From Salipiger thiooxidans (GTDB lineage: Bacteria > Pseudomonadota > Alphaproteobacteria > Rhodobacterales > Rhodobacteraceae), in NCBI RefSeq assembly GCF_900102075.1, contig NZ_FNAV01000004.1, positions 1-64,000 of the forward strand: DNA of 64,000 nt. Direction: 5' to 3'. The notes beneath the pieces are model-generated. The model did not search any database. It was not told the DNA's origin and saw only the letters and a program-made list of their open reading frames with translations. The first letter of the stretch is position 1; each line of letters begins with the position of its first letter. Shown here in pieces: positions 51,352 to 51,546 of the stretch. Made by a program: the position numbers and the translations under genes.

Positions 51352-51522
51352 AAAAAAGGCCTCGGTGACGATGTCACCAAGGCGGATCCTGATTAAACAC
51401 ACAAGGCGACGCCACCACTCACGGAACCGCGCCTTGGGGACGTTACCACGGAGTGGCCTAAAGGCCAAGAGTTTATCAAAATGATAAACTCCTCCGTGGA
51501 TCGTCTCCCTCATTACGTTGAC
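51352..51522 (-). ncRNA. Candidate structured small RNA with three-way junction and intrinsic terminator
   Basis: Read on the minus strand: a basal helix GGG-A-GACG-AU-CCACGGAG (51509-51492) pairs with CUCCGUGG-UAA-CGUC-CCC (51453-51436). It encloses hairpin GAGTTTATC/GATAAACTC (51469-51491, 9 bp, loop ATTTT) and hairpin TGGCC/GGCCA (51454-51467). Then a 7-bp hairpin CAAGGCG/CGCCTTG (51402-51436), and finally a terminator GCCT-T-GGTGAC-ATC-GTCACC-G-AGGC (51383-51359) followed by C and six T. A -10-like TATAAG lies at 51534-51529. All helices are perfect apart from small bulges. The 3' T-run fixes the strand. I do not recognise a known family (not 6S, SRP, tmRNA or RNase P). Confidence 0.65.
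51359..51383 (-). terminator. Intrinsic terminator of the minus-strand RNA
   Basis: Stem GCCT/AGGC plus GGTGAC/GTCACC with one mismatch and loop ATC, followed on the minus strand by CTTTTTTG (51358-51351). Confidence 0.8.
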
Positions 51523-51546
51523 GGGACCCTTATATTTACGAATGAT
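51518..51546 (+). promoter_or_regulatory. Predicted promoter of the winged-helix gene
   Basis: TTGACG (51518-51523), 17-bp spacer, AATGAT (51541-51546). The predicted start at about 51553-51554 coincides with ATG 51554, suggesting a leaderless mRNA. It overlaps the 5' part and promoter of the opposite-strand RNA. Confidence 0.4.

Follow-up and report, generated by a model that had tools for sequence, protein, structure and literature searches.

Between imuA and a gene for a winged-helix protein, the 64,000-nucleotide stretch of Salipiger thiooxidans DNA analysed here (hereafter the window) contains a segment whose minus strand folds into five helices and ends in a terminator. An earlier note had drawn this segment, positions 51352..51522, as one structured RNA built around a three-way junction. 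Which of these helices belong to an RNA, which belong to regulatory DNA, and what might such an RNA do? With a probability of roughly two in three, we read the locus as a short trans-acting sRNA with its own promoter, whose loop would be the active surface and whose expression would be regulated by its neighbour. The helices are real, but the object differs from the earlier drawing. The left neighbour, imuA, has no evident link to the sRNA.

Fold and parts of the locus

All five helices are found in the segment at the positions given for them, and their chance origin is indeed unlikely: the minus strand of the 171 nt folds at -77.4 kcal/mol, compared with -51.5 +/- 4.6 kcal/mol for shuffled sequences (z -5.6), an energy matched by 1 of 200 shuffles. 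The plus strand of the same 171 nt folds comparably well (z -6.65), as is expected of perfect inverted repeats in DNA. An independent terminator scan recovered the intrinsic terminator on the minus strand. The absence of a known RNA family is borne out by an Rfam search of the whole window, which returned 0 matches at gathering thresholds (Rfam 15), the best weak match being Spot_42 (RF00021), which scores 20 bits where its threshold is 80 (E 0.19). Among nine relative loci searched in the same way, no family reached threshold over the element, and one locus (L029) gave a weak suhB match downstream of it (25.5 of 41 bits).

The predicted sRNA consists of hairpin 1 with GUGAGUGG in its loop, an AU-rich linker that is a possible Hfq site, and the terminator (Table 1). 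Covariance model R1 matches positions 51352-51441 with 87.1 bits, the window locus itself being part of its training set (as L032), and positions 51352-51436 fold with a z of -3.45. The candidate promoter TTGGCC-17-TAACGT, with a TG extension, sits within the sRNA-proximal half of the junction; its -10 and -35 elements are weak matches in the window, and the 5' end would lie 7 nt past the -10.

Table 1. Features of the locus, with positions in the window.
Feature	Position	Strand	Basis or remark
Predicted sRNA, ~82 nt	51352..51433	-	covariance model R1 match and fold z; 5' end (~51433) inferred
Intrinsic terminator	51352..51383	-	stem 51359-51383 and T-run 51352-51357; independent scan
AU-rich linker	51384..51401	-	alignments A4, A5
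Hairpin 1	51402..51436	-	stem 51430-51436 with 51402-51408, 7 bp; loop holds GTTCCGTGAGTGGTGG
Loop core GTGAGTGG (E2)	51415..51422	-	present in 19/30 and 30/35 protein-chosen loci
sRNA -10 TAACGT with TG extension	51440..51445	-	promoter scoring
sRNA -35 TTGGCC, 17 nt from -10	51463..51468	-	promoter scoring
Extended inverted repeat (the earlier three-way junction)	51436..51509		probable promoter/operator DNA
Palindrome E1, TTATCA-N3-TGATAA	51473..51487		probable operator; pattern in 33/42 loci
Promoter of winged-helix gene, TTGACG-17-AATGAT	51518..51546	+	ends 7 nt before ATG
MarR-like winged-helix regulator, 105 aa	51554..51871	+	homologue searches, structure model
MASE1-like membrane protein, 192 aa	51975..52553	+	GTG start assumed; homologue Pfam matches

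The predicted sRNA and the winged-helix gene are divergent, and the latter is followed by the gene for the MASE1-like protein. The structure model of the winged-helix protein (pLDDT 84.8) has MarR as its best PDB match, a weak one (E 5.3e-3, with none at E<=0.001), and Pfam HTH_IclR is matched by 9 of 13 homologues (best E 2.4e-4). The MASE1 assignment comes from the homologues: PF05231 is matched by 8 of 12 of them (best E 8.4e-7) and not by the protein of the window locus. The MASE1-like protein displays a conserved LPHGVR motif, and it is present in two relatives (L048 and L051) from which the sRNA motif is absent.

Conservation of the predicted sRNA and of its loop

In a DNA search of 295 Rhodobacteraceae genomes, G137 (E 4.7e-11), G239 (E 2.3e-6) and the same-genus G088 (E 3.0e-6) proved to have similar segments, always in divergent orientation to a winged-helix homologue. 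Searching with the winged-helix protein gave matches in 58 of the 295 genomes, from which 30 loci were examined, and a further 35 named loci were collected by the same protein from Salipiger, Pseudooceanicola, Maritimibacter, Alloyangia, Mangrovicoccus, Leisingera, Boseongicola and others. Both sets were picked by the neighbouring protein and not by the motif; the 8-mer GTGAGTGG occurs on the divergent strand upstream of the winged-helix gene in 19 of the 30 loci (380 nt upstream searched) and in 30 of the 35 (300 nt upstream searched). Among the 35, it is absent from L075, L076, L080, L082 and L096; the first four, from Mangrovicoccus and Poseidonocella, have kept E1 and the terminator, and perhaps have a changed specificity. 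Once 7 duplicates had been removed, 42 distinct motif-bearing loci were available for comparison, and they uphold the claim of a minus-strand non-coding RNA gene kept in relatives.

Compensatory changes, which the earlier note had proposed to look for in all the helices, are found in the terminator and hairpin 1, but the basal arms of the junction are significant in only a part of the loci (see below). In a MAFFT alignment of 10 loci selected for one shared stem register (A5), 95.0% of paired cells are complementary compared with 86.2% after shuffling, and changes on both sides occur in 10 of 18 pairs and in 5 of the 7 pairs of hairpin 1. A 40-row alignment fitted to the model (A7) joins 36 of the 42 motif-bearing loci with 4 motif-less ones and omits L038, L053, L060, L061, L086 and L092, whose R1 score was weak or none; here, both-side changes reach 7 of 7 pairs in hairpin 1 and 10 of 11 in the terminator, and the covariation score is 0.614 versus 0.232 shuffled, a value to be read with the fitting of the alignment to the structure in mind. 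Free RNAalifold on the 40 sequences recovered the terminator and not hairpin 1, in our opinion because the stem register shifts among lineages. In an independent test, the best stem flanking the motif exceeds shuffled flanks by a mean z of 1.8 over the 42 loci, with p<=0.05 in 9 of 19 loci. Mismatches in the terminator are 30 G.U against 4 A.C over the 42 loci, as expected of a minus-strand RNA. Hairpin 1 displays no such G.U preference in the winged-helix copies (17 G.U and 16 A.C), nor in the 18 loci with z>=2 (6 G.U and 10 A.C). Covariance model R2 has matches in 44 of 290 genomes at E<=0.01, and the 14 genomes with E<1e-6 all have the winged-helix gene; the weaker matches are mostly other terminators, with GTGAGTGG carried only by L123, L124 and L134 among L120 to L134. 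Conservation, compensatory changes, promoter and terminator signals and synteny together are the evidence for an sRNA locus. We infer its transcription, its start site, its targets, the binding of a regulator and a function by base pairing.

How the loop would act has two possible answers. If it pairs, mRNA targets would be expected to carry CCACUCAC. Sites of the form ACCACTCAC number 38 in three genomes compared with 24 for a reversed-pattern control, several of them being the antisense of sRNA copies; these three genomes held mainly coding sites and further motif copies, and no shared or convincing target for the loop complement. This lack of a complementary site, together with a loop that stays constant while the stems change, would suit an RNA that displays GUGAGUGG to titrate a protein, or a sponge, rather than an antisense RNA. 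To our knowledge no protein-binding motif matches GUGAGUGG, which speaks against such a role, and we consider it unlikely.

The junction as probable promoter and operator

One departure from the earlier drawing concerns the junction, whose place in the RNA is probably a mistake. In our own in silico scoring against shuffles of two-base blocks, the best promoter upstream of the motif reaches p<=0.05 in 31 of the 42 loci, and in 19 of the 42 the -10 ends 16-18 nt before GTGAGTGG. With a promoter lying within the junction and a start near 51433, the junction helices would not be transcribed. The box TATAAG, which the earlier note had cited in support of the strand, does exist; as promoter of the sRNA it was dropped, as it lies upstream of the motif in only 4 of the 42 homologous loci (L032, which is the window, L053, L061 and L092) and at differing distances.

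Could a longer RNA of ~170 nt nevertheless start upstream of 51522, with the three-way junction as its functional fold? The strong 171-nt fold (z -5.6) would suit it, as would the basal arms, which are significant (p<0.05) in 11 of the 33 loci with E1, the window being borderline (p 0.05), and which vary in parallel between genera, for instance in L035, L063 and L067. Against it stand the conserved promoter within the junction, the rarity of TATAAG and the kind of mismatch tolerated: in the sense of the sRNA, the basal arms of the 11 significant loci contain 20 A.C and 4 G.U mismatches, and E1 contains 13 A.C and 3 G.U. Furthermore, two loci of S. bermudensis (L062 and L064) retain the promoter and the sRNA with a basal helix far from significance (p 0.82 each), and a third locus of this species (L033) has a different repeat (p 0.03). 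We hold the longer RNA to be distinctly improbable. The mismatch pattern and the patchy presence of the arms argue instead that the region 51436..51509 is probably promoter/operator DNA and not RNA.

The T.TCAnnnTGAy pattern of E1 recurs upstream of the motif, and E1 itself is probably an operator; in distant lineages, it contains a TTGACA at a spacing that fits the -35 of the sRNA. The inverted repeat is flanked by two divergent promoters, one for the sRNA and one for the winged-helix gene. In Leisingera (L084, L086 and L089), a long inverted repeat surrounds E1, with 15 of 17-18 positions paired, and its right arm includes the -10 in a mirrored promoter-like layout.

The bias towards A.C mismatches would also suit an RNA of the plus strand, where the repeats could serve as a leader or attenuator of the winged-helix mRNA, and the plus-strand fold (z -6.65) would allow it. 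The best plus-strand promoter, if used, leaves the repeats upstream of the message, and the winged-helix mRNA would then be leaderless. A plus-strand promoter reaches significance in 15 of 47 loci, where its end mostly falls 5-7 nt ahead of the start codon, and does not in the other 32. A leader of this kind has, in our judgement, little chance of being the right explanation.

A second element between a LuxR solo gene and tsf

The loop of the predicted sRNA is not confined to the winged-helix locus. A 16-mer, TTCCGTGAGTGGTGGC, was found with at most one mismatch in 168 of 285 Rhodobacteraceae genomes, some of these matches being winged-helix copies, and its reversed-pattern control in 27 of 285 (counted by eye). 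Outside the Rhodobacteraceae, the exact 16-mer occurs in 0 of 285 alphaproteobacterial genomes; of the 4 Rhodobacteraceae drawn with these, 3 contain it. A second RNA-like element lies in the gap between a LuxR solo gene and tsf in ~60% of the sampled Rhodobacteraceae genomes, that of the window included (C25:224602). At the loci inspected, a LuxR-type gene was present in 31 of 31 and tsf in 28 of 31 within the fetched stretch, and query fragments match Pfam Autoind_bind, EF_TS and DHquinase_II.

The alignments of this element, A8 (30 copies) and A10 (22 copies), hold loci fetched by the 16-mer pattern, except L136, which came by a related 13-mer; L165 was left out as its frame of reference was off. 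GTTCCGTGAGTGGTGGC (columns 5-21) is almost invariant in the 30 aligned copies, which mostly reflects their retrieval by the motif itself; the hairpins around it display compensatory changes in 7 of 14 pairs. The upstream columns contain GGTAnGGAATnC...ACTT, an imperfect palindrome, and a CAnnnT -10 from whose position the RNA would start at GTTCC. The reading of this palindrome as a lux box is drawn from column conservation and is weak sequence by sequence (p<=0.05 in 5 of 30).

Covariance model R3, built for the second element, matches 169 of 280 genomes, training genomes included, and nearly always once among the matches listed. It scores the window copy at 18.9 bits (E 0.0099 in a 99-kb search); in a whole-genome search at E<=0.01, it returned the tsf copy of the window genome and not the window copy. 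Conversely, R2 detects second-locus copies in G134 (E 3.1e-4) and G199 (E 0.0029). As the stems differ between the two element types and R3 misses the window copy in the whole-genome search, their common ancestry is not proven.

A coding role of the conserved TTCCGTGAGTGG, for a small peptide FREWW, was rejected as far-fetched: the frame is open in the window, but upstream sequence and motif lie in differing frames in L005 and L043 (by eye), in L140, L145, L148 and L149 the frame runs into a stop no more than two codons after TGGTGG, and the absence of third-position changes is uninformative in second-locus copies, which were fetched by that pattern.

Further copies exist elsewhere. In the window genome, C62:115187 (L139/L099) has E1 upstream and a terminator ~110 nt downstream, with no winged-helix gene seen beside it. 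At C62:113310 (L183) and C23:2292 (L135), perfect stems of 10-11 bp, as judged by eye, close the GTGAGTGG loops, and the neighbouring genes are, by impression, presumably phage-like. Intergenic GTGAGTGGT copies at C30:11988 (L175) and at L184 and L188 in G137 resemble sRNA genes, with a promoter-like TTGACG upstream of L184. One match in the window genome (L138) lies inside an apparent cytochrome gene and is probably due to chance. We also read as chance the 18 matched stretches of viral contigs, all of which coincide with an open frame of 100 aa or more on one or the other strand. The plasmid collection contained no motif match.

Proposed mechanism and known systems

In the scheme that we favour, transcription would begin immediately ahead of the 7-bp hairpin, driven by a sigma70-type promoter inside the junction region, and end at the terminator. 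The GUGAGUGG loop would be a pairing (or protein-binding) surface acting on targets common to all copies. E1 and the surrounding repeat would be regulatory DNA between the divergent promoters; the likeliest protein to bind them is the winged-helix one, which may receive its signal from the MASE1-like membrane protein. Two regulators, the winged-helix protein and the LuxR solo, would control RNAs that share this active loop, each copy answering to the adjacent regulator. More tentatively, and at somewhat less than even odds, these copies would form a network throughout the Rhodobacteraceae, with the loop placed under LuxR solo/tsf in most genera, under MASE1/winged-helix in others, and perhaps on prophage-borne copies tapping the same targets.

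If the second element is what it seems, an sRNA gene has gone unrecognised in the gap from a LuxR solo to tsf in ~60% of the genomes sampled from a major, largely marine family, and the window has a relative of this sRNA under another sensor. For the group 1 LuxR solo this would mean an output that can be tested concretely and a shared regulon to seek and, if the network exists, this regulator of unknown function would work mainly via an sRNA.

The Qrr sRNAs of Vibrio exist in several copies per genome, have one shared pairing region and are tied to regulators. The present elements, likened to them by description, are likewise multi-copy and regulator-linked with a shared loop; the regulators and the bacteria differ. 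Spot 42 RNA (RF00021) is also short with a terminator hairpin at its end, although its model scores far below threshold here. We read the present elements as a family of sRNAs that have the active loop in common and in which each copy obeys the regulator next to it, a family undescribed as far as we found: the literature covered, mostly open-access and with PMC4338825, PMC4809877, PMC5107571 and PMC11655674 among it, contains no description of the motif or of the locus RNA. Intergenic sRNAs from the same bacterial family are reported in Ruegeria and Paracoccus (PMC4809877, PMC5107571), among them the 188-nt 'riboswitch82' against the LuxR-family gene SPO1974 (PMC4809877); the main texts of these two papers do not mention tsf or an elongation factor. 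A parallel in gene order is group 1 of the LuxR solos, with the context aroQ - luxR solo - tsf, tabulated for 25 genera in PMC4338825, a paper whose main text has 0 occurrences of 'small RNA'. Our second locus has the same gene context as this group, whereas the window locus has a different regulator.
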